A stretch of DNA of 64,000 bases from Haloarcula limicola (GCF_010119205.1 NZ_WRXM01000003.1:124001-188000), one strand, 5' to 3'. Positions 700 through 53,092 are shown, counted from the first letter of the stretch. A program made the numbers and translations. Notes: generated by a model from the letters alone, not told the origin.

Positions 700-724
700 C
701 TATCTGGCACCTCAGCCCGTACCG

Positions 725-732
725 TTAAAAAA
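725..732 (-). promoter_or_regulatory. TATA box of the GH88/105 gene
   Basis: On the minus strand this reads TTTTTTAA, centred about 30 nt upstream of the ATG at 699. This is the spacing expected for a haloarchaeal leaderless transcript. Confidence 0.5.
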
Positions 733-845
733 GTAGCTGTCCGACGGGACGCGCCTTTCAGCCAGTTAGCGGAGCGGGAGAGTCGAGACGCTTCTACTAC
801 CAAGATTCCCTATTCTAACTATAGAATCGTAGATTGTAAAGACAA

Positions 846-867
846 ATATATAATTTTGGTTATATAT
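846..867. repeat. AT-rich inverted repeat
   Basis: Arms ATATATAA and TTATATAT (8 bp, perfect) flank the 6-nt spacer TTTTGG. It lies in the AT-rich part of the gap between the GH88/105 gene and the subtilase. It could be a protein-binding site or simply a DNA-unwinding AT island. Confidence 0.5.
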
Positions 868-1210
868 AATCAGATAGATACAGGATATTCTCCATTAGAT
901 ATCTTTTTCTCACCAATTTAGAGAAGACGGTGCCATACTGAGCACAGATAATGCTACAATTTGGATATCACTTCGAACGGAGACGGAGGCTCCGGGGTCG
1001 GTGCGTGCTGGCAGAAGTCGAACGAACCGGAGCAGTCTCGCGGCGACGTTCGGAGCCCGCCTCACTGAAACCGTTCGATAGTGTGACTGTAGCTACCGCG
1101 GAGCGCAGTTCAGACGGAACCAGCGTCGCTGGCCGTACTCGTAGTTCATGAAGAGATAGAGCCGTACACGAAGGGAGGCCCATGGGAGCCGATACTCCCA
1201 GTGAGGGCAC

Positions 1211-1270
1211 CGTCGCCCGGCTCTCGCGGGCGACGAACGGTCGACGCTACATGCAGGGACCGTGCCTGCA
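1211..1270. repeat. Two consecutive short hairpins
   Basis: Hairpin 1 has arms CGTCGCCCG (1211-1219) and CGGGCGACG (1227-1235) around a 7-nt loop. Hairpin 2 has arms TGCAGG (1252-1257) and CCTGCA (1265-1270), also with a 7-nt loop. No gene is supported on either side for several hundred bases, so they could be part of a structured RNA or remnants of a lost gene's 3' end. Confidence 0.35.
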
Positions 1271-2048
1271 CCCTGTCATTCGTTGTCACTCGATAAATGC
1301 TTTCTGGTGAGACGGTCACGGACCGGCGAGCAGCTATCGGGCCCGCCGACCCCTCGTCGTCGGGTTTCGTCGCAGGCATATACTGATGCGGGTCCGGACA
1401 CCGGGAGTCTATAGTAACGGCCAATAGAGTTTTGAGACCCTCTCGTCTATCCGTGGATGCACGTGTTCGAACGTGCATTCGGAGCCGTCGAGAACACGCG
1501 TTCGGTAGTGGGATGCTGTCTGATCCCAACAAGGTGAGACAGCGTGGCTCTCTCGTACGAAGGGAGGTGGTCGTGCCACTCCACCGTCGCAGTTCTGATA
1601 TCGCGGGAGGAAGTCGCTCTCCTCTCGCCTTCGAACGCCCGTGATCGCGATGTAGGTCGGCCGCGATCGGCGTCGCGTGACCGGTGTCGTTACAGGAACG
1701 GGGTAGTCTACCGAAAACGTCCCGAGACGTTCGACTCGATAATCCGTCGAGGCTGTCCTCAGCACGGTCGCTTGCGAAGCACCATCGGTCGATACGGCTC
1801 GCGGGTTACCGCGACGTTTCGGTCGGAACGGGTGGTAAGCGGCGACTAGTCGGTCCGAATCCGGGTCGTTATCGCATTTCAGACGCCGTGACGACTCACT
1901 GTTACAACTGAACCGTCGCACGCGTCACAACTGTTTCGCGTTTGTATTGCGTTTCTAACTATTTATGCCGAGGCTGCGTCTCGACTATGTTCCGCTGTCA
2001 GGCCGCCGTCGCTCGATGCCACGCAGGGACGAGGTGGGGGAGCGTTCG

Positions 2049-28693: not shown

Positions 28694-29428
28694 TCATCGT
28701 CGCCGTATTCGGCTTCCCAGGGCCGTCAGAAGCTCGACGACGAACCCGAGCCCTGCGCGAGCGTCCCGTGATCGAAGGCGACTGAGCAGTCCCAACGGCC
28801 CGACCGATTCGGAATCGCGCTGCGCCTCACCGAGCGCCGAGAGCATCGCGTTCAGACCCGCTGCAGTGTCGGCGTCTATCTCCAGCGTCGAGAGCGTGGT
28901 CGCCAGCTCGACCAGTTCTTCGAGGTGGTTCTCACGCTGTAGCTCGAGGAGCATCTCGAGGGTCTCGATCATCTCTCCTCCCCCTTCCTCGAGGACCGTG
29001 GCCAAGTCGCTGATCTCCTCAGCGGAGAGCGAATCCGAGAAAGCGGTCGCTATCGCAACGAGGTCGTCGAGGTCGCCAGTTCGCTGGAGCGCGACCACGG
29101 TGTCGAGTGCGTCCGCGAGTTCGCTCGCGTTCGCTCCGACGTCGGCGGCGAGCTCGGCCGTCTCTCGGGTCGAGATCCCGTCTGCCGCCTCGAGAAGGTT
29201 GGCCGACGACGCCGTGAGATGCGCTATCTCGTCCTCGTCGGCCGTGGCGAGCATCAGTATCGCCGTCTCGAGCGCGTCTTCGGCTTCGTCAGTTCGCTCG
29301 ACCGCCGCTGCCAGCGCTTCGCCGTGGCGATCGAGTACTTCACGGAGCGCCGCCTCGCCGTCGCCAGTCTCTAATCGGCGTTCTCCGTTAGTGGCGTCGT
29401 TCGGGTAGACGTCTGTGGGGTTAGCCAT
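28694..29428 (-). CDS. DUF1641 protein, formate dehydrogenase accessory
   Basis: 244 residues, helical and very acidic, with repeated Leu/Glu patterns (AALREVLDRHGEALAAAVER, TLEMLLELQRENHLEELVEL) and a C-terminal GLLSRLRSRDARAGLGFVVE. DUF1641 proteins usually lie beside formate dehydrogenase catalytic subunits, and that is the case here: it starts 2 bases after the FdhA gene ends. It is the last gene of a four-gene operon. Its biochemical role (maturation or structural subunit) is not established. Confidence 0.85.
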   Translation of the reverse strand: MANPTDVYPNDATNGERRLETGDGEAALREVLDRHGEALAAAVERTDEAEDALETAILMLATADEDEIAHLTASSANLLEAADGISTRETAELAADVGANASELADALDTVVALQRTGDLDDLVAIATAFSDSLSAEEISDLATVLEEGGGEMIETLEMLLELQRENHLEELVELATTLSTLEIDADTAAGLNAMLSALGEAQRDSESVGPLGLLSRLRSRDARAGLGFVVELLTALGSRIRRR

Positions 29429-29430
29429 CG

Positions 29431-31722
29431 TCAGTCGCCCCCTTCGAGCGCCTCTGGGCGGTCGGTTACTTCACGAGTGGGGGTCCGTTCTCCCAGAGCG
29501 CCGTCGTCTGCGGGAGCGATCCGGACCGCGGAGACCTTGAACTCGGGAGTCGCCGCCGACGGATCGAGGCGGGTTTCGTCGGTGAGCCGGTTGACAGCGC
29601 TCTCGGCGAAGTGAATCGGCGCGAAGAGCGTCTCCGGCCCGACGCGGTCGGTCACCTGTGCGGGGACGGTGATCTCGCCCCGCCTGGATTCGACGGTCAC
29701 CGCGTCACCGCTCTCGATGCCGTACGCTTCTGCCGTCGCTGGATTGACTTCGACGAAGTCGCTCGGCGTGTACTCCATGATTCCCTCCTCGCGGTGAGTC
29801 ATCGTCCCCGTGTGGTACTGGTAGAGGACGCGGCCGGTCGTCAGCGTGAACGGGTACTCCTCGTCGGGCGTTTCGGCGGGTTCGCTGTAGCCGACCGCCT
29901 GCAGATGGGCCTTCCCGTCGTCCGTGTTGAACTCGTCTTCGTACAACCGCTCCGTCCCCGGGTGGTTCTCGTCCCAACAGGGCCACTGGAGACCGCCCTC
30001 GTTCTCGACTCGGTCGTGAGTCACGCCGCCGTAAAGCGGCGTCAGCGAGTTCACTTCCTCCATGATCTCGGCCGTCGAGTCGTAGTCCCAGTCGCGTCCC
30101 ATCCGACCGGCGAGGTCCTGCAGAATCCGCCAGTCGGGACGGGAGTCCCCTTTCGGTTCCATCACCCGATTGACCTTCTGCACGGTCCGGTCGGTGTTCG
30201 TGAACGTCCCCGTCTTCTCGACGAACGAACAGGCCGGGAGGACGACGTCGGCGTACTTCGCAGTCTCGGTGACGAAGAGGTCCTGCACCGCGAGGAACTC
30301 TAAGTTCTCCAGCACCTCCTCGGCGTGATTCACCCCCGGTTCGGAGAGGGCGGAGTTCTCGCCGATGATGTACATGCCGCGGAGGTTTCCCTCGTCGGCT
30401 TCGAGAAACATCTGCGTGGTGTAGTACCCGTACTCCGGGGAGATGTCGCAGTCCCACGCGTCCTCGAACTTCGCTCGGACCTCGTCGTCGGCGATATCCT
30501 GATACCCCGGGAAACTGTCGGGGAGCGGCCCCATGTCGCCACCGCCGCCCTGCACGTTGTTCTGGCCGCGGAACGGCGAGACGCCCGCGCCGGGCTTGCC
30601 GAGATTCCCGGTCACCGCCGCGAGGTTCGCCATCGCCATGACGTTCTCCGTCCCGTGGGAGTGCTCGGTCAGGCCGAGCGTCCAGCCGAACACGCAGGTG
30701 TCCGCCGCCGCGATCGTCTCGGCGGCCGACGCGATCTCCTCGGGCGGGACGCCGGTCACCTCTCGGACGCGCTCGGGCGTGAACTCTCGCACCGCCTCGG
30801 AGACCGCTTCGAAACCGGTCGTCCGCTCTTCGACGAAGGATTCGTCGTAGAGGTCGTTCTCGACGATGTAGCGCGTGATGCCGTTTATCCAGACCGCGTC
30901 GTAGCCCGGGTTGACGCGGCTGTACTGGGTCGCGTACTCGGCGATCTGGACCTCGCGGGGGTCGAAGACGAGCAGGTCCGCGCCGTCGCGGACGTTCTGC
31001 TTGATGCGCGTCCCGATGACGGGATGGGCCTCCGTGGTGTTCGACCCGGTGATGAGATAACAGTCGGTCGATTCGATGTCGTCCATGTTCACCGAGGCCG
31101 CGCCGTAGCCGTACGTCCGGGCGAGGCCGGCGACTGTCGATGAGTGACAGAGGCGGTTGCAGTTGTCGATGCTGTTGGTACCCAACACCTGGCGGGCGAA
31201 CTTGCCCATCAGGTAATTGTCCTCGTTGGTCGCTTTCGAGGAGGCGATGACCGACAGCGACTCGCCGCCGTGTTCGTCCTTGATCCGGGATAGTCCCTCG
31301 GCCACGCGTTCGAGAGCCTCGTCCCACGTCGCTGTCCGGAACTCCCCGCTCTCGTCGCGGACGAGCGGCGACGTCAGTCGGTCGTCCGAGTTGACGAAGT
31401 CGTACCCGAACTTGCCCTTTACGCAGGTGGAGATGCCGTTGACCGGCGCGTCCTCTTCGGCCGTCGGGCGCGCGGCGAGGATCTCCTCGCCGTCCGAGTA
31501 GAGGTCGAACCGACAGCCGACCGCGCAGTAGCCACAGGTGGTGTCGGCGACGTTCAGTTCTTCGAGTCGCTTGTCGCCGACCGACTGGGCGATCTCGAAC
31601 AGTTTCCCCTCCGGCAGCGTCTCCGCGGCGACGCCTTCCGCGAAGTGCTCGACGTTCTGGATCGCTCGATCTTTGGCCTGTTGCATATACCCCGCCACCC
31701 CGTCCATCTCGTCGTCACTCAT
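29431..31722 (-). CDS. fdhA: Molybdopterin formate dehydrogenase catalytic subunit
   Basis: 763 residues from ATG 31722, which overlaps the upstream gene's stop (ATGA); a GTG at 31728 is an alternative. The [4Fe-4S] motif CGYCAVGCRFDLY is followed by a later Cys in STCVKGKFGYDF. NRLCHSSTVAGL places Cys at the Mo/W ligand position (the Sec/Cys site) with the following conserved His. GRVLYQYHTGTMTHR and VTDRVGPETLFAPIHFAESA belong to the cofactor-binding C-terminal domain. It oxidises formate to CO2, or acts on a related substrate, and passes electrons to the NuoG-like and NuoF-like subunits encoded upstream. No Tat signal is seen, so it is cytoplasmic. Confidence 0.93.
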   Translation of the reverse strand: MSDDEMDGVAGYMQQAKDRAIQNVEHFAEGVAAETLPEGKLFEIAQSVGDKRLEELNVADTTCGYCAVGCRFDLYSDGEEILAARPTAEEDAPVNGISTCVKGKFGYDFVNSDDRLTSPLVRDESGEFRTATWDEALERVAEGLSRIKDEHGGESLSVIASSKATNEDNYLMGKFARQVLGTNSIDNCNRLCHSSTVAGLARTYGYGAASVNMDDIESTDCYLITGSNTTEAHPVIGTRIKQNVRDGADLLVFDPREVQIAEYATQYSRVNPGYDAVWINGITRYIVENDLYDESFVEERTTGFEAVSEAVREFTPERVREVTGVPPEEIASAAETIAAADTCVFGWTLGLTEHSHGTENVMAMANLAAVTGNLGKPGAGVSPFRGQNNVQGGGGDMGPLPDSFPGYQDIADDEVRAKFEDAWDCDISPEYGYYTTQMFLEADEGNLRGMYIIGENSALSEPGVNHAEEVLENLEFLAVQDLFVTETAKYADVVLPACSFVEKTGTFTNTDRTVQKVNRVMEPKGDSRPDWRILQDLAGRMGRDWDYDSTAEIMEEVNSLTPLYGGVTHDRVENEGGLQWPCWDENHPGTERLYEDEFNTDDGKAHLQAVGYSEPAETPDEEYPFTLTTGRVLYQYHTGTMTHREEGIMEYTPSDFVEVNPATAEAYGIESGDAVTVESRRGEITVPAQVTDRVGPETLFAPIHFAESAVNRLTDETRLDPSAATPEFKVSAVRIAPADDGALGERTPTREVTDRPEALEGGD

Positions 31723-32684
31723 GGCCACTCACCGCTGTTCGCATCGTCCGTCCAGACGTCGGTCTCGTCGGTCCCTTCGTCGTCGCTCGTCGACGCTTCG
31801 CTCGGTGGCGTGTCGCTCGTCGGCTCTTTGTCGTGTTTCTTCGGTGTCATCGGGCCGGTGGACGACCCGGAGCTTTCGTGGACCTTACCGATACTGTTTT
31901 TCTGCGTGAACCCGGGTAACGGAAGCGTCGTGGCGTCTTCGATGCCCTTCTCGACGAGCGACCCGGTCGGACAGACGGTCGCGCAGTGGCCACAGGAGAC
32001 ACACGCCGAGTCGTCCATCGTCTCGGCGTCGCTCTGAAACCCGATGCGCGTGTCTTTTCCGGACCCTTCCATGCGGAGGACGCCCTCGACCTGCACGTCG
32101 TTGCAGGCCTCGACGCAGCGGTTACAGAGGATACACTTGTTCCGGTCGATCTGGATGAACGACGAGGAGTCGTCCAGCGGCTCGTACTCGCCCCGGTCGT
32201 CGAGGACGCCGTAGCGGGGCTCCTCGACCTCCTGTTCGATCGCCGCGTCCTGCAGTTCACAGCGGCCGTTCTTCCCACAGGTGGTACAGCGGAGGTTGTG
32301 GTCCGAGAGGACCAGATCGAGGTTCACGTCCCGCGCTTCCGAAGCGGCGTCCGCATCGGTTCGGATAGTCATGTCCTCCTCGGGCGGAAAGCTACAGGCC
32401 GGGACGACGCCGTGGGCGTCGGTCTCGACCATACAGGTGCGACACTCGCTGCGCGGACCGATCTCCTCTCGGCCGTAGTGACACAGCGCGGGGACGGATT
32501 CCTCGGTATCGACGGCCTCTACGGCGTCGATAAGGGTCGATTCCGGCGGAATCGTCACCGCCGTCCCGTCGACGGTCACGGTGACCGACTCCTCGCTTCT
32601 GACCGGCGGGTCGGTCGCCGTCCCCGGTGCGATCTCCTCTGTCAGTGGCGGTGCATCCGTCGTCGCTTGGTTCTCCGAACTCAT
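31719..32684 (-). CDS. NuoG-like iron-sulfur subunit of the formate dehydrogenase complex
   Basis: 321 residues. The N-terminal [2Fe-2S] ferredoxin domain has CHYGREEIGPRSECRTCMVE and a following PACSFP. A His/Cys cluster comes next (HNLRCTTCGKNGRCELQDAA), then two [4Fe-4S] motifs, CILCNRCVEAC and CVSCGHCATVCPTGSLV. This is the arrangement of the Fe-S arm of NuoG and of the gamma part of NAD-linked formate dehydrogenases. The last 60 residues are a low-complexity acidic tail, unusual for the family. It is coupled to fdhA by an ATGA overlap and lies 2 bases after the NuoF-like gene. Confidence 0.92.
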   Translation of the reverse strand: MSSENQATTDAPPLTEEIAPGTATDPPVRSEESVTVTVDGTAVTIPPESTLIDAVEAVDTEESVPALCHYGREEIGPRSECRTCMVETDAHGVVPACSFPPEEDMTIRTDADAASEARDVNLDLVLSDHNLRCTTCGKNGRCELQDAAIEQEVEEPRYGVLDDRGEYEPLDDSSSFIQIDRNKCILCNRCVEACNDVQVEGVLRMEGSGKDTRIGFQSDAETMDDSACVSCGHCATVCPTGSLVEKGIEDATTLPLPGFTQKNSIGKVHESSGSSTGPMTPKKHDKEPTSDTPPSEASTSDDEGTDETDVWTDDANSGEWP

Positions 32685-32685
32685 G

Positions 32686-34176
32686 TTACGAGACCTCTAT
32701 CGCGTTGTCACAGCTGCCGGCCGGACAGCGCCCGTCCGCGTGCGCCCGAAACTCCGCTTCGAACACGTCGATGGCCGTCCGGGCCGGACGGGCGGCCTGA
32801 ACGCCGAACGCACAGATACTCGACGTCTCCATGACGCGAACCAGTTCCGCGATGCGGTCGGGGGCGTACTCGCCGTCGTAGACGTCGCGGAGCAGGTCCG
32901 TCAACTGCGTCGTTCCCTCTCGGCACGGTACGCACCGACCGCAGTTCTCCTCGGACGCGAACCGAGCCAGTCGTCCGACGAATCCGACGATACATCGGTC
33001 CGCGGAGAGCACTTTGATCGTGCCGTCCGTCCCGAGTTCCGCCTGCGAGAGCGAGTGCGGGTCGACGGCGACGTCGAGGTCTCGGGTCAGTCCGCCGAAC
33101 CGACCACCGACGCAAGCGGCTTTGACCGTCCCCTCCACGGAGACGGCCGAGAGCGCTTCGGAGATCGTCCCCGACTCGGGGAGCTCTATCGTCGCGGGCG
33201 CGGCGACGTCACCCGTCAGCGTCAGTACGCGGGAGGCCGGTGGCGATTTCCGGCGGAGCGCTACCGAGAGATTCGCGAGCGTTCTGGGGGTGTGAACCAG
33301 CGTCGGACGCCCGTGCACTCCCACGTCCTCCAGATCGGGCGGTCGGAGTCGGGCCTCCAGTCGATGGTTCCCCTCGATGGCCTCGACGGCCATCGTCGGC
33401 TCGGCCGCCCGGTAGTCCGCGGGGCCCGTCACCACGTCCAGCGGCGTCTGGAGGTTCGGGTGGTCGTCTACCGCCGTTCGGAGCGTCTCGACGGGTCGCT
33501 CGTCGTCGGCCGATGCGTACACGACCACCCGGTCGATATCGGCGGCGCGGGCGACGGCGGCCACGCCGTCCAGCACCTCGAACGGAGCGCTCGCCAGCAA
33601 CACCGCGTCACCGTCGTTCCCGTGGCCGTTCACGACGAGCGTCGTCTCCTCGTCCGCGTCGCGGACGGTCTGCCACGCGTCCGCCACGAGTTCGTCGTGA
33701 CAGGCGTCCCCCCACCCTCTGCCACGGAGCTGTCGCCCGATTTCCAGCACCGTCGCGGGTTCCGTGTCGGGGAATCCGCCGGCCCGCTCGTGGTCCGACG
33801 GACTCGCCGGTCGCCGCCACCCGCAGCCGCCGAGTACGTCCCGCACGCCCGTACTCAGTCCGGACGCCTCGGGAACTGGAAGCCGGGTCGCCTCGGGGTC
33901 GTGTTCGGCGACGGCGTCCGGTGTACCGGGCGGCCCGCCGTCAGATTCGCCGGCCCGTTCGATGATTTCCTCGATCCGTTCGGGGGAACACCGCGTGTAG
34001 AACGCGGTTCGGCCGCGGCGAGTCGCCATGACGAGCGGCTCGATCGCCCGTACGCCCGTCGTTCCTACTCCCGCAACGATACCGTCCGCGGTCGCGTTCG
34101 TTTCTGAGAGCAGCCGCGGTGAGTCCCTGGCGGCTACCCGTACGACTGTCTCGTCGGCAGTTACGATAGCGCTCAT
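32686..34176 (-). CDS. Divergent NuoF-like subunit (diaphorase subunit homologue)
   Basis: 496 residues from ATG 34176 (MSAIVTADETVV); an ATG at 34209 would add 11 residues. The C-terminal part is NuoF-like: a SLBB-like segment (PASRVLTLTGDVAAPATIEL) and the [4Fe-4S] motif ENCGRCVPCREGTTQL, then SSICAFGVQAARP. In the middle, where NuoF proteins have a GRGGAGFPTG FMN loop and an ADEGDPG NADH loop, this protein reads LRGRGWGDACHDEL and VVNGHGNDGDAVLLASAP. FMN/NADH binding is therefore doubtful. It is the first gene of the operon. The electron acceptor may not be NAD. Confidence 0.82.
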   Translation of the reverse strand: MSAIVTADETVVRVAARDSPRLLSETNATADGIVAGVGTTGVRAIEPLVMATRRGRTAFYTRCSPERIEEIIERAGESDGGPPGTPDAVAEHDPEATRLPVPEASGLSTGVRDVLGGCGWRRPASPSDHERAGGFPDTEPATVLEIGRQLRGRGWGDACHDELVADAWQTVRDADEETTLVVNGHGNDGDAVLLASAPFEVLDGVAAVARAADIDRVVVYASADDERPVETLRTAVDDHPNLQTPLDVVTGPADYRAAEPTMAVEAIEGNHRLEARLRPPDLEDVGVHGRPTLVHTPRTLANLSVALRRKSPPASRVLTLTGDVAAPATIELPESGTISEALSAVSVEGTVKAACVGGRFGGLTRDLDVAVDPHSLSQAELGTDGTIKVLSADRCIVGFVGRLARFASEENCGRCVPCREGTTQLTDLLRDVYDGEYAPDRIAELVRVMETSSICAFGVQAARPARTAIDVFEAEFRAHADGRCPAGSCDNAIEVS

Positions 34177-34464
34177 GTATTGCTGGCTTTGGGTGTGACT
34201 ATCATGCACTACGATACCGCGTCGGAAGCGAGGCTTCGGCGGTCTCGATACTCATCGGCCGGTCGACCGTCGCTGTCGAAGAAGTGAAACAGGAACGGAT
34301 CGCCCCGCGAGACAGCGACGGAAGCACATGGACAGACACTTGGTAAGCGTTCGGTACGGCAGAGCTGGGTACGAGTGCCAGCCAGCGGTACGAGTACCGT
34401 TCCTGCGTTCGTTCATCATCTTCCGGGTGCATATACGTGGCGGTATCGCGCCGCTGAATCCGGT

Positions 34465-37111: not shown

Positions 37112-38008
37112 ATGACCGATAGCGCAACGAATACCGATGGTACCGGACGCATCATCGACGCGCACGTCCACATGAACCCGTTCTGGCGACTCGACGACGA
37201 CGCCCGTGGACTGCTCCGCGAACACGGGCACGGGTTCGACCAGAAAGTGGAACTGGCTCGCAACCCGGAACAGTTCGTGGCGTACCTCGACGAGCAGGGT
37301 GTCGAGAAAGCGGCGATCATCAACTACGTGACGCCGATTCTGGGGTACACACACGACGTGAACGAATGGGCCGCGGAGTTCCGCGACACGGCTCCCGAGC
37401 GCATCCTCGCGTTCGGAGGGTTCGACCCGAACGATACCGACGACCCGGAAGCGGAGCTCGACCGGGCCATCGACGACCTCGACCTGGACGGGATCAAGAT
37501 ACACCCCCCGCATCAGAACATACAGGCCAACGACTACCTCTCGGACCCCGGCTATCGCGGGCTCGACGAACTGCGCAGCCTCTACGAGCGCTGTGCGGAG
37601 GCCGACATCCCGGTGATGGTGCACACGGGAACGAGCATCTTCCCCGGCGCTCGCTCCCGGCTGGCGGATCCGATGCCGTTGGACGACGTCGCCGTGGACT
37701 TCCCCGACCTCGACATCGTCATGGCCCACGGCGGACGGCCGATGTACACGGACGAGGCCTGGTTCCTCCTCCGCCGACACGAGAACGTCTACTTCGACAT
37801 CTCGTCCATCCCGCCGTCGAACTTGCTGGAGCACTTCCCGCGGCTGGCGGAGGTCGTAGACCAGGTGCTCTTCGGGACCGACTGGCCGGGTCCGATGGTC
37901 CCCGGGATCGGCGAGAACGCCGAGGCCGTCCGCTCGCTCTCGCTGCCGTCGGACGCCGTCGACCGCATCCTCTATGGGACCGCCGCCGAACTGTTCGACG
38001 TGAGATGA
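37112..38008 (+). CDS. Amidohydrolase family 2 protein (ACMSD-like TIM barrel)
   Basis: 298 residues from ATG 37112. Metal ligands of the amidohydrolase-2 barrel are all visible: HxH in IDAHVHMNPFW, His in IPVMVHTGTS, His in IVMAHGGRPMY and Asp in LFGTDWPGP. An extra KIHPPHQN segment lies in the middle. Members either hydrolyse C-N or C-O bonds or, as in ACMSD and gamma-resorcylate decarboxylase, remove CO2 non-oxidatively without other cofactors. Its stop overlaps the start of the metallo-hydrolase gene (ATGA). Proximity to UbiD-like genes makes a decarboxylase or ring-fission product hydrolase plausible. Confidence 0.9.
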   Translation: MTDSATNTDGTGRIIDAHVHMNPFWRLDDDARGLLREHGHGFDQKVELARNPEQFVAYLDEQGVEKAAIINYVTPILGYTHDVNEWAAEFRDTAPERILAFGGFDPNDTDDPEAELDRAIDDLDLDGIKIHPPHQNIQANDYLSDPGYRGLDELRSLYERCAEADIPVMVHTGTSIFPGARSRLADPMPLDDVAVDFPDLDIVMAHGGRPMYTDEAWFLLRRHENVYFDISSIPPSNLLEHFPRLAEVVDQVLFGTDWPGPMVPGIGENAEAVRSLSLPSDAVDRILYGTAAELFDVR

Positions 38009-38976
38009 ACCCGTTCCGTATCGCTCACAGTCACGGCAGTCCGGAGGGAGAGAACAGCGCGTACGTCTTCCCGGAGCGAGGCGTCGTCATCGACCCCGGC
38101 CCGCCGGGTGACGAGCCGTGGGAGGTCCTCCGTGACGGCCTCGAAGCGTACGGACTCGAAGTGGCCGACGTGGAAGACGTCGTCCTCACTCACTGGCACT
38201 CGGACCACGCCGGGCTCGGGCCGCGGCTGGCGACGGCCGCCGACGCCGCGCTGCACATGCACGAACGAGACGCCCCCTTGATCCGCGACTACGGGACCGA
38301 GCGCCGGCGGCGGGTCGAACGAGACGCCGAGACGCTCACTTCGTGGGGCGTGCCGGAGCGGATCGTCTCGGACGTTCGCGACAGCGACACGCCGTCACCG
38401 ATGCCCGACAGCGTCCCGGTGGTCGGCCACGAGGACGGGGACAGCGTGGCTGACCTCGAACTCAAGCACACGCCCGGACATACGCGCGGCCACGTCGCGG
38501 TTCGCGCGGAGCGGACGCTCTACGTCGGCGACGCGGTGCTCCCGATGTACACGCCGAACGTCGGCGGAAGCGACACTCGGACCGCCGCCGGCAACCCGCT
38601 CGAAACGTATCTGCGGACGCTCGACCGCATCGGCGACTGGAACGTGGAGCAGACGGCTCGGCCGGGGCACGGCCCGCTCGTGTCTCTCGACGACCGCATC
38701 GCGGTCATTAGAGCGCACCATCGGGAACGCATCGCCGATAGCTGCGAAGCGATCCCCGACGGAGAGGCCGTCACGCCCTGGACCGTCGCTCGGACGCTCT
38801 TCGGTGAGATGTCCGGGATCCACGCCAAGATGGGGGCCGGCGAAGCGGCGGCCCACCTCACCCACGCTGCGAAACTCGGCTTAGTGGAACGGACCGACGA
38901 ACGCCCTCACCGATATCGGACGACGGGCGAGTCCCTCGACGACGTTCCGCAGCTGTCGACAGGCCAGCAGGCATAG
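38005..38976 (+). CDS. Metallo-beta-lactamase fold hydrolase with winged-helix tail (LACTB2-like)
   Basis: 323 residues from ATG 38005. The HxHxDH motif is in LTHWHSDHAGLGP, the following His in HTPGHTRGHV and the bridging Asp in YVGDAVLPMY. The C-terminal 70 residues (GEMSGIHAKMGAGEAAAHLT) form the BLACT winged-helix extension typical of LACTB2-like hydrolases. Such enzymes cleave thioesters, phosphodiesters or lactones. Being coupled to the amidohydrolase, it may open a lactone or thioester made by that enzyme. Confidence 0.9.
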   Translation: MNPFRIAHSHGSPEGENSAYVFPERGVVIDPGPPGDEPWEVLRDGLEAYGLEVADVEDVVLTHWHSDHAGLGPRLATAADAALHMHERDAPLIRDYGTERRRRVERDAETLTSWGVPERIVSDVRDSDTPSPMPDSVPVVGHEDGDSVADLELKHTPGHTRGHVAVRAERTLYVGDAVLPMYTPNVGGSDTRTAAGNPLETYLRTLDRIGDWNVEQTARPGHGPLVSLDDRIAVIRAHHRERIADSCEAIPDGEAVTPWTVARTLFGEMSGIHAKMGAGEAAAHLTHAAKLGLVERTDERPHRYRTTGESLDDVPQLSTGQQA

Positions 38977-39039
38977 CTATATATATTACCGCTGTATACA
39001 CCGTTCTAGGTTCCGAGACTCCGCTCGTGAGTACCCATT

Positions 39040-39534
39040 ATGACTAGATACAGTACTGCCGAAGAGAATCTCCCCGACGACCCCGAAGGCGAAGTGCGTC
39101 TGCAACTGACAAATACGGACACGAAGGAGATTTTCGTCACGCGAGCGCGCGTCGCGAAGTCCGAGACAGAACTCGACGACCCGGAGCCGCTCACGGTCGT
39201 TCGCGGTCCCCACGAGAACATCAAGGAGGACTGGTACATCGAGATACTGGAGGCGAACCCGGAACTCGAGGAGATAGACGAGGAGATCCTCCAGGAGTGC
39301 ATCGAGTACAGTCGCACCGAGTCCAACGTCATCAACGCCCGGTCGGAAGACGCCCGAGCGCTATTACAGTATCTCGTCGCGGTCGACGAGTTCGACTCCG
39401 TCTCGGACGCCGTCCGGACCATCGTAAACGCGTACATGCGAGAGACCTACCCCGAACTACTCGACGCCTATCTCGATGCCAAAGCGGAGCGCATCCGGGA
39501 CGATCTCTCCAGTTCGTTCGGTGACAGTAAATGA
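39040..39534 (+). CDS. Unknown acidic protein with a C-terminal ribbon-helix-helix-like region, coupled to UbiD
   Basis: 164 residues, strongly acidic. The first half (EVRLQLTNTDTKEIFVTRAR) looks like a beta-strand domain. The second half contains EFDSVSDAVRTIVNAYMRE, which resembles the two helices of CopG/ribbon-helix-helix proteins, then a long charged helix. The stop overlaps the UbiD start (ATGA at 39531-39534). A TATATATATT run at 38980-38989 is the likely promoter for the three-gene operon. It could be a regulator or a small third subunit of the decarboxylase. I do not recognise a family for the N-terminal half. Confidence 0.72.
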   Translation: MTRYSTAEENLPDDPEGEVRLQLTNTDTKEIFVTRARVAKSETELDDPEPLTVVRGPHENIKEDWYIEILEANPELEEIDEEILQECIEYSRTESNVINARSEDARALLQYLVAVDEFDSVSDAVRTIVNAYMRETYPELLDAYLDAKAERIRDDLSSSFGDSK

Positions 39535-41063
39535 CTGATCGCCAGGGCGACGCCGTCGACAGCTTTCGCGACTACCTAGAGCGGTTAGCGGAACGCGGGG
39601 TCTGTAATCGAATCGACCAGCGGATCTCGTGGAACCTCGAGGCGAGCGCGGTGACGATGCGAGCCAACGAGCAGGACTCGGCGATTCCGGTTTTCGAAGA
39701 CGTGAGCGACGACTCCTCGGCTCGGCTCGTGGGGGACCCGTATCGCGGAGCGCGCCGGAAACCGTGGAAGCGCATCGCGATGGCCTTGGGATTGAGCGAG
39801 GACCTGACGACCGATAGCTTCTACGAGGCGGTCATCGACCGGTTGCGTTCGCCCATCTCGCCGACAGTCGTCGACAGCGAGGCGGCACTGTGTAAGGAGA
39901 CCGTCCACACCGGCGACGACGTCGATCTCCTCTCGTTCCCGTGGCCGTTCCTCCACGTCGGCGACGGCGGGCGCTACTCGAACCTACACACGCTCATCGC
40001 GGACGACAGGGACACGGAGTGGACGGACTGGTCGTCACATCGCGCGATGTTCCACGACAACACGCGGGCGAGCGTGCTGTTGCTCGCCGGCGAGCAGACG
40101 CCGAACATCTACTACTACAAGTACGAGCGCCACGACGAACCGATGCCGGTCGCCATCACCGTCGGCGCGGAGCCGGCGGTCGAGTGCGTCTCGATGATGT
40201 GGATCCCGACCGGGCGGAGCGAAGCGGAGTTCGCGGGCGGGCTGAAACGCGCACCGGTCGAACTCGTCCCCTGCGAGACGAACGATCTCCGCGTCCCGGC
40301 GACGGCGGAGATCGTCCTCGAGGGGCGCATCCTCCCCAACAGTCGCCTCGACGAGGGGCCCTACGGCGACTACTTCGGGTACATGCACGGTCCGCGTCGG
40401 TCGATGCCCGTCCTCGAGATCGACGCGATCACGCACCGGGAACGACCCCACATCCCGTTCACCGTCGAGTGGTCGGAGGTCGGGTACGCGCACAACACGA
40501 CCTCTTCGATGGAAGTCGCGTGCGTCGGTCCCGACGCGACGCTCGGCCTCCGGGCGGTCGGGTTCGACGTGGAGAAACTGGCTCCGTGGCCCTTCACGCC
40601 GCGAACGGTCTACGTCGTCTCGACGGATACGACCAATCCGTCGTACCTCCACGAGCTCGCCAACTTCATCTTCACGACGTGGGGGATGCTCCACGTGGAC
40701 TTCTTCGTCTTCGTCGATTCGGACGTGGACCCGTTCGACCAGCGCGCGGTACTCGAGGCGATGGCGCTGTACGCCGACCCGGACGAGGACTTCCACCAGT
40801 TCGGCGCGGAGACGATGCCGAAAGTGCCGCTCAACATCTATCAGACGCCCGAGGAGAAGGGGGACGTGCAGATGGGGACGTCGAAGGCGAAGACGGCGAA
40901 GACGTACATCGACGCGACGCGTCCCGAGGGCCAGGGTCAGGAACGCGGTTTCGGGCTCGAAGACACGGAACGGAGACGGCGTGCGCGCGAGATACTCGAA
41001 GCGGCCGGTCTAGCGAGTGCCGCCGCCGAGACGGCCGACGCCGACCGGGAGGTAGACGAATGA
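39531..41063 (+). CDS. UbiD family decarboxylase (catalytic paralogue)
   Basis: 510 residues of the prenylated-FMN-dependent UbiD family, which (de)carboxylates aromatic and alpha,beta-unsaturated acids. The prFMN-binding domain shows VAITVGAEPAVECVSMMW and LKRAPVELVPCETNDLRVPA. Catalytic candidates are Arg in SSHRAMF (about residue 169) and Glu in EGPYGDYFGYM (about 273). The second acid of the usual EGPxGE is Asp here, a conservative change. The family's typical YRMQ strand is altered to SSHRAMF. The last 60 residues are polar. It is coupled upstream to the unknown 164-residue protein and downstream to a second UbiD-like gene by ATGA overlaps. No UbiX prenyltransferase is in the window. Confidence 0.9.
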   Translation: MTDRQGDAVDSFRDYLERLAERGVCNRIDQRISWNLEASAVTMRANEQDSAIPVFEDVSDDSSARLVGDPYRGARRKPWKRIAMALGLSEDLTTDSFYEAVIDRLRSPISPTVVDSEAALCKETVHTGDDVDLLSFPWPFLHVGDGGRYSNLHTLIADDRDTEWTDWSSHRAMFHDNTRASVLLLAGEQTPNIYYYKYERHDEPMPVAITVGAEPAVECVSMMWIPTGRSEAEFAGGLKRAPVELVPCETNDLRVPATAEIVLEGRILPNSRLDEGPYGDYFGYMHGPRRSMPVLEIDAITHRERPHIPFTVEWSEVGYAHNTTSSMEVACVGPDATLGLRAVGFDVEKLAPWPFTPRTVYVVSTDTTNPSYLHELANFIFTTWGMLHVDFFVFVDSDVDPFDQRAVLEAMALYADPDEDFHQFGAETMPKVPLNIYQTPEEKGDVQMGTSKAKTAKTYIDATRPEGQGQERGFGLEDTERRRRAREILEAAGLASAAAETADADREVDE

Positions 41064-42451
41064 CGGACGCGCGCTCGTTCCGCGAGGGCGTCGACGCGCT
41101 GGCGGCGAACGACGACCTCCTCGACGTCGACGAGCGCGTCTCGGACGAGGACGTCGCCGCAGTCGCAGCGGAAGCGGCCCGCTCGAACGGGCCGGCGGTG
41201 CGATTCACCGAAACGAGCGGCGTCGTGACTCCGGTCTCGGGGGCGTTCGCGGGACCGGAGCAGGTGACACAGAGCTCGGAGAGACCGTGGAAGCGCATCG
41301 CGACCGCGCTCGGCCTCGAGACGGACGCGTCGTACCGACGCGTCGTAGAGCGCGTCGCCGCGCCGCTGGCGGCGGCGACGGAGCCCGCGGAGACGGACCT
41401 GCTCGCCGACCCGTCGGACGCTGACTGTTACTCGCTGGGCCTGCCGCCGCTGGAACCCGGCGCGCCGCCCGCGTTCACGCTGGGCGTACTCGCTTTCGAA
41501 CACGGGGACGAGACGCGGTGGCTTCCGGTCCGCGGGTCCGTCCGCGGCACGCATCGCGTCCGAGCGGTCGTCCCGGCGGACAGCGGCCTGACGTCCAGCG
41601 CCGAGGTGTCGCTCTGTCTCGGTGTGCCGGGAGCGGCGGTGACCAACACACTCCTCCACTGGCTTGACCGATCCCAGACCGGGAGCATCCGTCCGGGGAC
41701 GAAGTCCGACGCCGTGCCGACGGCGACCCACGAGGGACGGGTAGTCCCAGCCACGTCCGAAGTCCTCTTCTCGGGCCGCGTCGCGGACTTCGAGGCGGGA
41801 TCGGAGCCGTCGGTCGACGGGGGAACGGCCTGGGAACTGGCGATGGAGACGGAGGTCGTCGACGTGAGCGTCGACGCGGTGGCCCACCGCGAGTCGCCGC
41901 TCGTCCCGTTCGTCCCGCTCGGAACGCCGCTCACCGACGACGTCCAACTGGTCGGCATCACCGAGTCGGCGCGCCTGAACTACCGCGTGAACAACTACTG
42001 GGGCATCGAGCCCGTCGAGTGGATTCGCCTCCCCGCGGAGATGAGCCTCGGCATGTGCGTCGTCGCCTCCGAGATACTGTACGCCGGCTTCGAGTGGCAA
42101 CTGTCGAACACGCTCTTCGCCTTCTCCAGCCTGTTCGACAAGATACTCATCTTGGACGAGAACACCTCGGCTGCGGACCTCTCGCGCCCGCTAGACGACA
42201 TCTGGGTGAAGGCTCACCCGTCTCAGGACTGGGTGTTCAGCGAACCGAGCGCCCCAGCCGCGACCGCACCGCGGTACCGGACCGACGGCGAGCCGGGGTC
42301 GCGGCTGTTCATCAACGCCACGTGGGACCCGCGCTGGGACGAGGAGTACATCGCGCCGCGGGTGACCTACGAGACCTCCTATCCCGAGGAGGTCCGCCGG
42401 ACCGTCGCGGAGATGTGGAGCAACCTCGGATTCGACTCCTCGGACGACTGA
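41060..42451 (+). CDS. Degenerate UbiD-like protein, probable non-catalytic partner
   Basis: 463 residues from ATG 41060, inside the ATGA overlap. It aligns over its length with the upstream UbiD: both have PWKRIATALGLE/PWKRIAMALGLS near the start, and VDAVAHRESPLVPF/IDAITHRERPHIPF after the active-site loop. Between these, where the partner has EGPYGDYFGYM, this protein reads EPSVDGGTAWELAMETEV, so the catalytic acid is missing. The region corresponding to the partner's Arg is also shortened. It is likely a structural or regulatory subunit of a hetero-oligomeric UbiD enzyme. It ends one base before the convergent thiolase-fold gene. Confidence 0.8.
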   Translation: MTDARSFREGVDALAANDDLLDVDERVSDEDVAAVAAEAARSNGPAVRFTETSGVVTPVSGAFAGPEQVTQSSERPWKRIATALGLETDASYRRVVERVAAPLAAATEPAETDLLADPSDADCYSLGLPPLEPGAPPAFTLGVLAFEHGDETRWLPVRGSVRGTHRVRAVVPADSGLTSSAEVSLCLGVPGAAVTNTLLHWLDRSQTGSIRPGTKSDAVPTATHEGRVVPATSEVLFSGRVADFEAGSEPSVDGGTAWELAMETEVVDVSVDAVAHRESPLVPFVPLGTPLTDDVQLVGITESARLNYRVNNYWGIEPVEWIRLPAEMSLGMCVVASEILYAGFEWQLSNTLFAFSSLFDKILILDENTSAADLSRPLDDIWVKAHPSQDWVFSEPSAPAATAPRYRTDGEPGSRLFINATWDPRWDEEYIAPRVTYETSYPEEVRRTVAEMWSNLGFDSSDD

Positions 42452-42452
42452 G

Positions 42453-43871
42453 TCACTCGGGGACGAACTTCAGTCCGTATCGAGTGACGCCCTCGACGCT
42501 GTATATTCTCCGGAGCCGCCCGCTGACCCGGTCGCCGACGGATACCTCGTCGGGTTCGCAGTCGGTCAGCTGAACGGGGAACCGAGCCGACCCGTCCCCG
42601 GCGGTGACTTCGACGATCGCGACGGCGAACGGCCCGTCGCGGCGCTGGAACTCGACGAACTCCGGCGGCGCGCCGCCCTGACCGATGACGGTCACGGCGA
42701 CGATCTCGCCGGTCCGCGGAAGTTCGACGGTCTCGAACTCCACGCGTTCGTGACAGTCGGGACAGGCTCCTTCGGGCGGGAACGCGACTGCCCCACATTC
42801 GGGGCACTGACCCGCTTCGAGCCGATATCGCTGCGGGATGGTCCGCTGCCAGGAGGGGAGACTCACGTGGGCACCGCCGCCGGCGACCTCCGTTTCGCCG
42901 ACGACGCCGCGCTCGCGTAGCGCCGCTGTGTACGGGATGGAGACGCCGCTCTCGACGGCCGCCGAGACGCCCGTATCGAGGGCGTCCCGGGTCTCGAACG
43001 CGAGCGCGACGGCCGTCGCTCCGCTCCCGAAGAAGCCCGCGACGGTCGTCGACGAGGGGTCGCTCTCGCCCAGCGCCGCGAGCAAGCCGATGGCCGGCGT
43101 CGCCGCGCCGGCGTCGCCGACGTCGTCGACGAGCGTGCCCCGCGCGACCGCCTCCGCGTCGTAGGGGAGCGCGCCGGCGATCCGATGCGGGATATCCGGC
43201 GTCGGCTGGTGGAAACTCGCGCCATCGACGGCCTCGTGGTCGACGTCGAGCGCTTCGACGGCCGTCGAGACGAGGTCGCGGGTCGTCTCGCGCTCGTAGG
43301 TCGTGATGTCCAGCTCTTCGACGCCGTCGGCCCCGCGCTCGCGGAACCGGAGCCCCGGCGCGTCGCGCGAGCGCGTCGCCGAGTCTGCGAGGACGACAGC
43401 GCCGCCCTCGTCGAAGAGGAACGCGGCGGCACCGGCACCGACGCGCTGTCCGACCTCGGCCGGGTCGCCGTTCGGGGTGTCCGAGACGACGGCCAGCGCG
43501 GGACCGGGGGCGGCGGCGGCCGACAGGAGCGCGTCCGCGCCGGCCACCGTGCTCTGCGTGGCCGCCTCCAAGACGCAGTCCGCATCGAGGCCGAGCGCCG
43601 ACGCGGCCCGCGGCGCGAACTCCTCCTCTTCGAGCGGCGGCGTCGTCGTGCCGATCGCGAGGTGGTCGACGTCGCTCGCGTCCGCGTCGCCGCTATCGAG
43701 CGCGTTTCGGCCCGCCGCGACGGCCATCGTGAGCGCGTCCTCGTCGGCCGTCGGCACGGCGGCCCGCGAGACCGGCGCGCCGGTCCCCCACGCCGCTTCG
43801 ATCTCCTCGCCGTCCAGCCGAGACCGCGGGAGGTAGACGCCGGTCGCGACGATTCCGCGGTCGGCGCTCAT
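42453..43871 (-). CDS. Fused thiolase-fold (HMG-CoA-synthase/KASIII-like) and DUF35 zinc-ribbon/OB protein
   Basis: 472 residues. The first 330 form a thiolase superfamily domain of the HMG-CoA synthase/KAS III type (IVATGVYLPRSRLDGEEI, GAAAFLFDEGGAVVLADSAT, GFFGSGATAVALAFETRD). The nucleophile region reads EAATQSTVAGADALL with no Cys, so condensing activity is doubtful. From about 345 a DUF35 unit begins: rubredoxin-like ribbon CPECGAVAFPPEGACPDC, then an OB fold (GEIVAVTVIGQGGAPPEFVE). DUF35 proteins often scaffold thiolases in archaea. It overlaps the upstream thiolase gene by 4 bases, so the two probably form one complex. Confidence 0.88.
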   Translation of the reverse strand: MSADRGIVATGVYLPRSRLDGEEIEAAWGTGAPVSRAAVPTADEDALTMAVAAGRNALDSGDADASDVDHLAIGTTTPPLEEEEFAPRAASALGLDADCVLEAATQSTVAGADALLSAAAAPGPALAVVSDTPNGDPAEVGQRVGAGAAAFLFDEGGAVVLADSATRSRDAPGLRFRERGADGVEELDITTYERETTRDLVSTAVEALDVDHEAVDGASFHQPTPDIPHRIAGALPYDAEAVARGTLVDDVGDAGAATPAIGLLAALGESDPSSTTVAGFFGSGATAVALAFETRDALDTGVSAAVESGVSIPYTAALRERGVVGETEVAGGGAHVSLPSWQRTIPQRYRLEAGQCPECGAVAFPPEGACPDCHERVEFETVELPRTGEIVAVTVIGQGGAPPEFVEFQRRDGPFAVAIVEVTAGDGSARFPVQLTDCEPDEVSVGDRVSGRLRRIYSVEGVTRYGLKFVPE

Positions 43872-50781: not shown

Positions 50782-51549
50782 TCAGGCCCGTGCGAACTCA
50801 GCGTTCTTGACGCCGGTCAACGCGTCGATCAGTTCAGAGCGGATGTGTCCCTCGCCGACGCGGCGGCGCGTGCTGTCCCACTCGTCCGCGTCGGGCGCCT
50901 CCCAGTCGGCCACCGAGATATCTACGTCGGTCCCCTCGAACATCGAGTCGTACTGCGCTTTGAACCCGTCGCGGACGTCGGCGGCCGACCGATCGGTGAA
51001 GCCCGACTGCACGAGCGGGTCCGAGTCGGCGTCGAGCGCTGCCGGCCCGATGAACGCGAGCACGCCCGGGACCGCCGCCTCGAGCGCCGCTTCGACCGCT
51101 TCGGCGTTCTCTTCGGCGTGACGTTCGAGACTGCCGTCCAAGTGCTCTAAGTGGAAGTACTCGTCCTGGCCGATGCGCTCGCCGAGACCGTCGAAGTCCT
51201 CGTGGACGATGGAGTCGATGAGGTACCAGGCGGCGCGCTCGGTCAGGTCGGCGACCGTGACGAACTCGACCCACGAGTCGAACTCCTCGTCGAGGCAGGC
51301 GGCGTTGGCGAACTCCTCGGGCGACCGGTCGCCCTGCAACCACGGGAGGGCGCGGCCGTGGCTGGAGAGTTTCTCGAACAGCTGGCGGACGTGGCCGATC
51401 TCGTCCTGGGCGGCACTCGCGCCCGCGATGTCGTCCTCTAAGACCGGCCCGGAGAGCATCCACTCCGTGTACCGGTGTGAGAGGATCAGCTTCGTGTCCG
51501 CGATCGCCTGTACGTACTCTACCGCGTCGTCACTCCAGTTCTCAGTCAT
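50782..51549 (-). CDS. paaC: 1,2-phenylacetyl-CoA epoxidase structural subunit PaaC
   Basis: 255 residues from ATG 51549, which overlaps the paaB stop (ATGA). Ferritin-like helices show ADTKLILSHRYTEWMLSGPV, AQDEIGHVRQLFEKLSSHG and IDSIVHEDFDGLGERIGQDE. PaaC pairs with the catalytic PaaA in the epoxidase; in bacteria it is structural and has lost most di-iron ligands. Some ExxH-like pairs remain here (DEIGH, DEYFHLEH), so loss of metal binding is not certain. A longer upstream frame is a shadow of paaB. Confidence 0.93.
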   Translation of the reverse strand: MTENWSDDAVEYVQAIADTKLILSHRYTEWMLSGPVLEDDIAGASAAQDEIGHVRQLFEKLSSHGRALPWLQGDRSPEEFANAACLDEEFDSWVEFVTVADLTERAAWYLIDSIVHEDFDGLGERIGQDEYFHLEHLDGSLERHAEENAEAVEAALEAAVPGVLAFIGPAALDADSDPLVQSGFTDRSAADVRDGFKAQYDSMFEGTDVDISVADWEAPDADEWDSTRRRVGEGHIRSELIDALTGVKNAEFARA

Positions 51550-51758
51550 TGTGTGCTCCTGGGCGGCGATTCCGCCTTCTGGTTCCCGGTCACTTCGATG
51601 AGTTCGTCGCGGGGAACCGCGACCATCCGGTCCCAGTCCTCCTCGTCGAACGTCGTCCGCGCGTACGACTTCACTAGTCTGTCGTCCGGTGCGTCCACGT
51701 TGCCGACGTGGATGAGTTCGTCGCCGGCTCTGATGCGTGCGAATACTTCGTACTTCAT
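51546..51758 (-). CDS. paaB: Phenylacetyl-CoA epoxidase subunit PaaB
   Basis: 70 residues from ATG 51758, overlapping the paaD stop. It starts MKYEVFARIRAGDELIHVGN and continues VDAPDDRLVKSYARTTFDEE and WDRMVAVPRDELIEV. This is the PaaB fold, a small scaffold that holds PaaAC heterodimers together. Bacterial PaaB is about 95 residues, so this one is short. It is translationally coupled on both sides. Confidence 0.9.
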   Translation of the reverse strand: MKYEVFARIRAGDELIHVGNVDAPDDRLVKSYARTTFDEEDWDRMVAVPRDELIEVTGNQKAESPPRSTQ

Positions 51759-52144
51759 AGTGCAATCCCGGATTCTCGGAGTTCCTCTCGCGCGTGCTCG
51801 TCCAGCATGTCCTTGGACCACACCGGGTCCCAGACGACGTCGATCTCGACGTCGGTTACGCCGTCCATCGTCCGGAGGCAGCCCCGGATGTCGTCGTGGA
51901 TGAACTCGTAGGCGGGACAGCCCATACACGGGAACGAAAGGTCGACCCGTGCGACCCCGTCTCTGTCCACGCTGACGTCGTATATCATCGCCATCTCGAC
52001 CAGGCTCAGCGGGAGATGCGGGTCGGGGATCTCGTCGAGGTTCATCCAGACCGCCTCTTCCAGTTCGGTCTCGGTGCCGTCCGGGCCGATGTCGAACGGA
52101 CCGAATCCCAGTTCGTCGATCTGCGTCTCGGAAGTCTTGCTCAT
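51755..52144 (-). CDS. paaD: PaaD-like MIP18-family protein without its zinc ribbon
   Basis: 129 residues. The MIP18/DUF59 domain is clear: WMNLDEIPDPHLPLSLVEMA, then VDLSFPCMGCPAYEFIHDDI with the conserved Cys pair, and VTDVEIDVVWDPVWSKDML. Bacterial PaaD has an additional C-terminal zinc ribbon of about 40 residues; here the protein stops early and the ribbon is a separate gene at 50593-50778. PaaD is needed for maturation of the epoxidase. It lies 9 bases after paaA. Confidence 0.92.
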   Translation of the reverse strand: MSKTSETQIDELGFGPFDIGPDGTETELEEAVWMNLDEIPDPHLPLSLVEMAMIYDVSVDRDGVARVDLSFPCMGCPAYEFIHDDIRGCLRTMDGVTDVEIDVVWDPVWSKDMLDEHAREELRESGIAL

Positions 52145-52153
52145 AGTGGGAGG

Positions 52154-53092
52154 TTAGGGCATCACGTCGACTTTCCCGGACTGGATCAGGTTGACGTACT
52201 TCTCGTTGGCCGGGCCGCGGGCTCGCCAGCGGTCGATGACGTCGTCCCACGAGACCGGTTCGTCGAAGCGCCACTCCTTGTTCTCCTCGTCGAACGCGAC
52301 CGGGAACTCGTAGTCGATGACGTACTCGTCGGCGTCCTCGTCGTAGTGGGCGGGGAATTCGAGGCCGATCTCGTCGAGGAACGGGACCGTCCGATCCATC
52401 CAGTCCTGTCGGAGCTCGTCGTTGGACAGGCCCTTGATGCGGTATTCGAGCTGGTCGTCGTGCTGCTTCTTGTCGTCGGGGAGGCCGAACCACTCCAGCG
52501 CGATGGGGAACATCCAGTCGACTGCCTCCTGGACCTTCTCTCTGGTCGATTCGTTCTTGTTGGCGAGGCGGCGCATCCACGTCTCGCCGTGGCGGAGGTG
52601 GAACTGCTCCTCCTTGGAGACCTTCGTCAGCGCGCGTTTCCACGGGGCGTAGGACGTGTTCTCGTGGATGTCACCGAGGAGGGTGATCCCCGCGCGGTCG
52701 AACAGGCCGTGTGCACAGACGAGCTCGGCGAAGTTGTCGATGTGCTGGTCGAACCCGTAGGTGTTGCGGAACTCGTGGGGTTCGCGCTCGAAGATCAGCT
52801 CCTCTCGGTCCTCGCCGATGTCCTCCAGCAGGCGGTACGCGATGTGGCCGTGACCGAGTTCGTCCTGGATGACGCTCACACAGGAGGCCCGGGCGTCGAG
52901 ACTCGGCGCGTTGAGCGACTGCTCGTAGTACGCCGGCGCGCTCATCAGTTCGGTGTCGGCCGAAACCAACAGGATCTGTTTTAGCGCTTTCTTGTATCCC
53001 TCGGTCATGTCCTCCTCGGACTCGACCATCTTCCCGTTCTGTAGCTGCTCTTTGAACTCCTCTTCGGAGAGGGTAGCTGGGTCTACGGACAT
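52154..53092 (-). CDS. paaA: 1,2-phenylacetyl-CoA epoxidase catalytic subunit PaaA
   Basis: 312 residues, the di-iron ferritin-like oxygenase subunit. Ligand motifs are VSADTELMSAPAYYEQ, VIQDELGHGHIAYRLLED (ExxH) and SKEEQFHLRHGETWMRRLA (ExxH). It uses O2 and electrons to form the 2,3-1,2-epoxide of a ring CoA thioester. Length matches bacterial PaaA. It heads the operon A-D-B-C-zinc ribbon. A TTATTTAT box lies about 32 nt upstream of the ATG. The natural substrate could be phenylacetyl-CoA or another aryl-CoA. Confidence 0.95.
   Translation of the reverse strand: MSVDPATLSEEEFKEQLQNGKMVESEEDMTEGYKKALKQILLVSADTELMSAPAYYEQSLNAPSLDARASCVSVIQDELGHGHIAYRLLEDIGEDREELIFEREPHEFRNTYGFDQHIDNFAELVCAHGLFDRAGITLLGDIHENTSYAPWKRALTKVSKEEQFHLRHGETWMRRLANKNESTREKVQEAVDWMFPIALEWFGLPDDKKQHDDQLEYRIKGLSNDELRQDWMDRTVPFLDEIGLEFPAHYDEDADEYVIDYEFPVAFDEENKEWRFDEPVSWDDVIDRWRARGPANEKYVNLIQSGKVDVMP

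Follow-up and report, generated by a model that had tools for sequence, protein, structure and literature searches.

Three adjoining genes of Haloarcula limicola probably encode the subunits of a single hetero-oligomeric UbiD-type carboxylase or decarboxylase. Judged from sequence comparisons, the probability of this reading is about 0.7. The genes lie in a stretch of 64,000 nucleotides (NZ_WRXM01000003.1, 124001-188000), the whole of which is referred to below as the window. They are called S, B and C in the order in which they follow each other, and they code for a small protein, a UbiD-family chain with an intact catalytic motif and a UbiD paralogue that has lost this motif. The trio appears to be a variant of the multi-subunit UbiD systems, possibly one that is independent of UbiX.

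In the proposed enzyme, B would carry out the chemistry with R171, E275 and D280 and would pair with C through the C-terminal (oligomerisation) domains of the two chains. C would be a pseudoenzyme with a structural or allosteric role, shaping the active site of B or opening it, and S a small linker or activator subunit, its role comparable to that of VdcD or of the naphthalene carboxylase linkers. Next to CoA activation, the complex would convert a carboxylic acid, either unsaturated or aromatic, into its decarboxylated form or the reverse. That a dead UbiD is one chain of a hetero-oligomer was already suggested in the preliminary description of the locus, and the genetic part of that suggestion is strong: B and C co-occur one to one, the distance matrices of the three proteins are congruent and C has a predicted UbiD fold. 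The suggestion is also supported by the known hetero-oligomeric UbiDs (PMC8379154, PMC12016498, PMC10570749, PMC7500099).

More than 50 species carry an intact UbiD, a dead UbiD and a small protein but never UbiX, and they offer a direct test of the UbiX rule. The trio is the smallest set seen here of the kind that combines a small protein with several UbiD chains, as in naphthalene carboxylase. Haloarchaea are a culturable group with genetic tools, and the presence of the trio in them could open the multi-subunit UbiD carboxylases to experiment.

Gene layout and conservation of the trio

All three genes are on the plus strand. S (164 residues) occupies positions 39040-39534, B (510 residues) 39531-41063 and C (463 residues) 41060-42451; B is assigned by Pfam and alignment, and C by these and an AF2 model. 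Both junctions in the window are 4-base ATGA overlaps, at 39531-39534 between S and B and at 41060-41063 between B and C, so that the ATGA-linked set of three genes proposed earlier is found at 39040-42451, with the small protein as a member of the operon and its gene as the first of the three. Among 40 loci, 37 have a B/C overlap of exactly 4 bases. S is present in all 40 aligned loci, and its junction with B is looser: the overlap is 4 bases in 25 loci, and the others range from a 29-base overlap to a 34-base gap. An A/T-rich stretch 5' of S, spotted by eye (38974-38990, plus strand), is a possible TATA element.

Of 194 haloarchaeal genomes, 54 contain a high-scoring C, and these 54 are also the ones with B, in a single copy per genome; the occurrence of C homologues without B, which had been named as evidence against a partnership, was thus not observed. 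The order S-B-C on one strand is kept in all 39 further loci read in detail and in all 66 named loci from a scan of genome contigs, two sets that overlap in organisms. The distance matrices correlate at 0.90 for B and C, 0.87 for S and B and 0.93 for S and C, and none of 999 Mantel permutations was as high. Such correlated distances would fit co-inheritance of the three genes, yet they are also expected from shared vertical descent. The contig scan, made with two peptide patterns specific to the C family, returned haloarchaea alone, a result to be read in the light of the fact that bacteria may escape such patterns. Many trios are located on large plasmids (17 PLSDB records), which suggests that the entire catabolic island may move.

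The chain with the intact motif and its cofactor

B is over the Pfam cut-off for UbiD_N, UbiD and UbiD_C, the UbiD match being at 1e-62. The motif defined for the UbiD family, RXnEX4(E/D) (PMC5818171), is present in B as R171, E275 and D280, and when 40 B and 40 C sequences are aligned together these residues are invariant in B, as the first reading of the window sequence had led one to expect. With Fdc1 of A. niger as the reference, R171 (codon at 40041-40043, plus strand) corresponds to Arg173, and E275 and D280, which enclose the residues GPYG (40353-40370, plus strand), correspond to Glu277 and Glu282. Three further residues of Fdc1, Asn168, His191 and Glu233, are presumably the Mn2+ ligands that hold prFMN. 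Glu233 is retained in B as E231. The Asn168 position is taken by D166 in the window (40026-40028, plus strand) and by N in only 1 of the 40 B sequences; N is found there in most of the canonical and archaeal sister UbiDs compared. At the Gln190 and His191 positions B has E and Q without exception, and His191 is likewise not conserved in most other UbiDs compared.

UbiD chemistry is taken to need prFMN made by UbiX, a flavin prenyltransferase. UbiX (TIGR00421) was found in 16 of the 194 haloarchaeal genomes and in none of the 54 with the trio; Haloferax volcanii, a laboratory host, likewise gives no match to the UbiX model. UbiD (PF01977) occurs in 70 of the 194, which are exactly the 54 trio genomes and the 16 UbiX genomes; UbiX is thus present in 16 of 16 UbiD-bearing haloarchaea that lack the trio. 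These genomes are non-independent samples, in which the trio is spread over 20 genera and UbiX over 8, and one genus (g16) contains both states, in different species. In the genome of the window, which is 99.98% complete, B is the only UbiD over the cut-off, and the one member of the Flavoprotein family reads as CoaBC. A wider Flavoprotein search returned a single gene per trio genome, which in G000, the genome inspected, reads as CoaBC; each of the 16 UbiX genomes has two or more. In a control set from elsewhere in the phylum, 222 of 230 UbiD-bearing genomes, counted by hand, have UbiX over the cut-off, and the exceptions are draft genomes that are at most 92% complete.

The absence of UbiX from 54 genomes sits badly with prFMN chemistry in the trio and counts against the hetero-oligomer reading. 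The earlier claim that B is an active UbiD holds as far as the catalytic motif is concerned, and activity with prFMN is doubtful. The chance that B is independent of UbiX-made prFMN, and works instead with unmodified FMN, a different cofactor or prFMN supplied by an unrelated or unknown prenyltransferase, is a little short of even. This alternative concerns the chemistry and is compatible with a complex of B, C and S. It draws on the distribution of UbiX, both within haloarchaea and among the UbiD-bearing relatives outside the class, on the altered Asn168, Gln190 and His191 positions, and on the precedent of a phenylphosphoamidate carboxylase with two UbiD chains that is reported to be active with FMN (PMC7500099). 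Against it stands the retained Arg-Glu-Asp triad, which is best understood with prFMN. In addition, HudA, whose aligned residue at the Asn168 position is Ser, binds prFMN together with Mn2+ and is active (PMC7976604), so that the loss of Asn168 alone is not decisive, and the change at His191 is shared with most other UbiDs. If borne out, the absence of UbiX would raise the novelty of the trio.

The degenerate chain and the small protein

In C, UbiD_N and UbiD_C are over the Pfam cut-off, but the match to the central UbiD domain, at 11.1 bits, is under the cut-off of 23.3 bits. Among 40 aligned C sequences, the Arg173 position is R, H, Y or A, the Glu277 position is variable, and the Glu282 position is P, R, K, S, G or W and never an acid, which agrees with the original observation that the second UbiD is devoid of the EGPxGD loop. 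The residues aligned to the lost E-x4-E/D loop are 250-254 (41807-41821, plus strand). Public records label C 'UbiD family decarboxylase', a label that is unlikely to be correct because the motif is lost. The degree of degeneration varies among lineages, since in one locus (L037, genome G075) the central UbiD domain of C is still over the Pfam cut-off, at 40.8 bits.

The AF2 model of C has a pTM of 0.80 and matches solved UbiD structures in the PDB at E values of 1e-20 to 1e-23. C is therefore predicted to have the UbiD fold, and the contrary outcome, which had been proposed as a test of the partnership, did not occur. The two domains of C have fared differently. The rift domain, which is the cofactor holder in live UbiDs, has drifted to a mean column identity of 0.39, whereas the C-terminal domain (residues 293-436) has a mean column identity of 0.65-0.72; both domains are conserved in B. 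Residues 381-436 (42200-42367, plus strand) are among the best conserved of C, yet their pLDDT in the monomer is below 50, and the segment may thus fold against a partner and is a candidate interface.

These features bear on another role that might be considered for C, that of an assembly or cofactor-loading factor (a chaperone or maturase) which acts on B and is not a subunit, with S as the structural partner. A degenerate UbiD could hold the cofactor, such a factor might be needed more where UbiX is missing, and prFMN chaperones such as LpdD provide a precedent (PMC10865409). Most of the cofactor-site residues of C are gone, however, and the part of C that is conserved is the C-terminal oligomerisation domain, so that this role is improbable for C.

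S is the least familiar of the three proteins. Its AF2 model (pLDDT 82, pTM 0.46) predicts an N-terminal beta domain and C-terminal helices, which are two consecutive helices with a low-confidence segment ahead of the first. No characterised family was matched in searches of Pfam, NCBIfam, PDB profiles and model folds, which weakens the hetero-oligomer reading; the NCBIfam models, among them the gamma subunit of phenylphosphate carboxylase, gave no match at E up to 1, and the fold search with the S model gave nothing below E 0.26. S is annotated in public records either as a 'hypothetical protein' or as a 'ubiD operon protein'. In its N-terminal part it is weakly similar to the small proteins that lie beside UbiD pairs in two-UbiD loci of other archaea, which account for 3 of the best 4 matches among 314 ORFs (E 0.014-0.19; best in the reverse direction 2.8e-5; hhalign probability 50).

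The sole PDB profile match of S is to a ParD antitoxin, over residues 102-135, and together with the two successive helices of the model and the low-confidence segment before them it might suggest that S is a regulator of the operon with a ribbon-helix-helix-like C-terminus, outside the enzyme. This role is slightly less probable still than that of a loading factor for C: the E value of the ParD match is 1.6, which is not significant, and the N-terminal beta part of S matches small proteins that are interleaved with archaeal UbiD pairs and do not have this C-terminus. An identity as a ribbon-helix-helix protein or antitoxin was rejected except as this weak alternative, as the PDB profiles give E 1.6 at best and Pfam gives no such match in 40 members.

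For C, 11 pairs gave dN/dS ratios from 0.09 to 0.28, which indicates that C is under purifying selection and hence maintained. A functionless duplicate in decay, which the loss of the catalytic residues might bring to mind, is very improbable in view of this ratio, of dozens of residues invariant across 40 C sequences and of the fact that C is nowhere lost where B remains, and the pseudogene reading was ruled out by selection and by co-occurrence with B.

Related systems and gene neighbourhoods

Among the multi-subunit UbiD systems, the naphthalene carboxylase complex of culture N47 consists of UbiD chains, linker proteins and ParA/MinD ATPases (PMC10570749, PMC12016498). Like the trio, this enzyme and its phenanthrene analogues combine several UbiD-like chains with small linkers in one cluster, and the N47 enzyme likewise feeds a CoA ligase. 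In the trio, too, two UbiD chains are encoded in one operon. By published description the N47 system differs in its larger number of UbiD chains, in its ParA/MinD ATPases and in belonging to strict anaerobes (PMC12016498, PMC10570749). The haloarchaeal set has one small protein, one live UbiD and one dead UbiD, and a reading of the annotated trio loci revealed no ParA/MinD ATPase.

Phenylphosphate carboxylase (alpha, beta, gamma and delta) resembles the trio in its two UbiD-like subunits (PMC7500099) and its small subunit. Its alpha and beta subunit models score 173.8 and 106.6 bits against B, at cut-offs of 564.6 and 468.95; identity with phenylphosphate carboxylase or with VdcC was rejected, since the family cut-offs are not reached. 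The phenylphosphoamidate carboxylase of Desulfatiglans anilini has two UbiD-like subunits as well; its chains are 52% alike, and neither a gamma nor a delta subunit is reported (PMC7500099). In the vanillate decarboxylase VdcCD the small protein is an obligate partner that activates the UbiD chain (PMC8379154), but VdcD is a zinc ribbon and there is no second UbiD, whereas 39 of 40 S proteins contain no more than one cysteine. LpdD, a prFMNH2 chaperone, is like S a small UbiD accessory protein; its gene is co-transcribed with the UbiX homologue lpdB (PMC10865409), and the sequence-profile search of the PDB set gave no match of S to LpdD.

Related sets were found by profile search in two non-haloarchaeal genomes of the phylum, where one gene run encodes two small proteins together with a UbiD and a degenerate counterpart (L157 in G396 and L159 in G368). 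The two UbiD genes are sisters of B and C and have small proteins between them, and as in the trio the degenerate chain is devoid of the Glu282 acid. Unlike the trio, both loci have two small proteins and a less degenerate C, UbiX is present in both genomes, and L159 has a gene for a ParA-type ATPase beside the UbiD pair. The C profile matches the degenerate chain of L157 at 1e-67 and the best canonical UbiD at 3e-33. In a tree built by a quick method without bootstrap, B clusters with the live chains of the other archaea at an SH-aLRT of 93 and C with their degenerate chains at 95; the canonical UbiDs are separated from B, C and both archaeal sister groups, which stand together (95). This sister grouping and the loss of the Glu282 acid in both degenerate archaeal chains indicate that the split into live and dead chains probably predates the haloarchaeal trio. 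The L159 run (1-4017), with its UbiD pair, two small proteins and ParA/Mrp-type ATPase, is laid out like the naphthalene carboxylase clusters, and UbiD is matched eight times in G368, an archaeal draft genome. The preliminary description regarded an enzyme of this kind as not yet described in archaea. Nothing relevant on haloarchaeal UbiD heteromers was found in the open papers searched, but the operon already bears the annotation 'ubiD operon protein' and related two-UbiD sets occur in these other archaea, so that the claim is right in part.

The trio loci lie in CoA-dependent acid degradation clusters of two kinds. Type I comprises the window and 20 other loci, most of which have a gene for an MBL-fold hydrolase adjoining the trio (38005-38976, plus strand, in the window), together with varying sets of PaaA/B/C-like oxygenase genes and genes for ferredoxin, acyl-CoA dehydrogenase, thiolase, enoyl-CoA hydratases and a benzoate-CoA-ligase-like enzyme. 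Type II comprises 19 loci with acyl-CoA synthetase, acyl-CoA dehydrogenase, biotin-dependent acyl-CoA carboxylase and MaoC hydratase, and in several of them a CitE/RipC-like lyase. To judge from these neighbours, the substrate would be an aromatic acid in the type I clusters, the window included, and type II trios would probably act on an unsaturated acid that is aliphatic. Each type forms one group in both the B tree and the C tree, so that a single switch would be enough. The two differing neighbourhoods count against the hetero-oligomer reading, as they make the substrate ambiguous.

A formate-dehydrogenase-like set near the trio in the window (28694-34209, minus strand) consists of a molybdopterin oxidoreductase, a NuoF-like protein, an Fe-S protein and DUF1641, and similar genes adjoin the trio on plasmid pHTUR01 of Haloterrigena turkmenica (L186). 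Box-like ring cleavage releases formate, which formate dehydrogenase-like genes at type I trios would suit. The PaaA/B/C-like oxygenase genes of the window are at 50782-53092 (minus strand); their counterparts in L032 score well under the phenylacetyl-CoA epoxidase cut-offs, so that the window genes possibly encode an epoxidase for a different aromatic CoA ester. Next to a thiolase gene, the window also encodes an HMG-CoA-synthase-like protein that is fused to a ChsH2/DUF35 zinc ribbon and an OB domain (42453-43871, minus strand).
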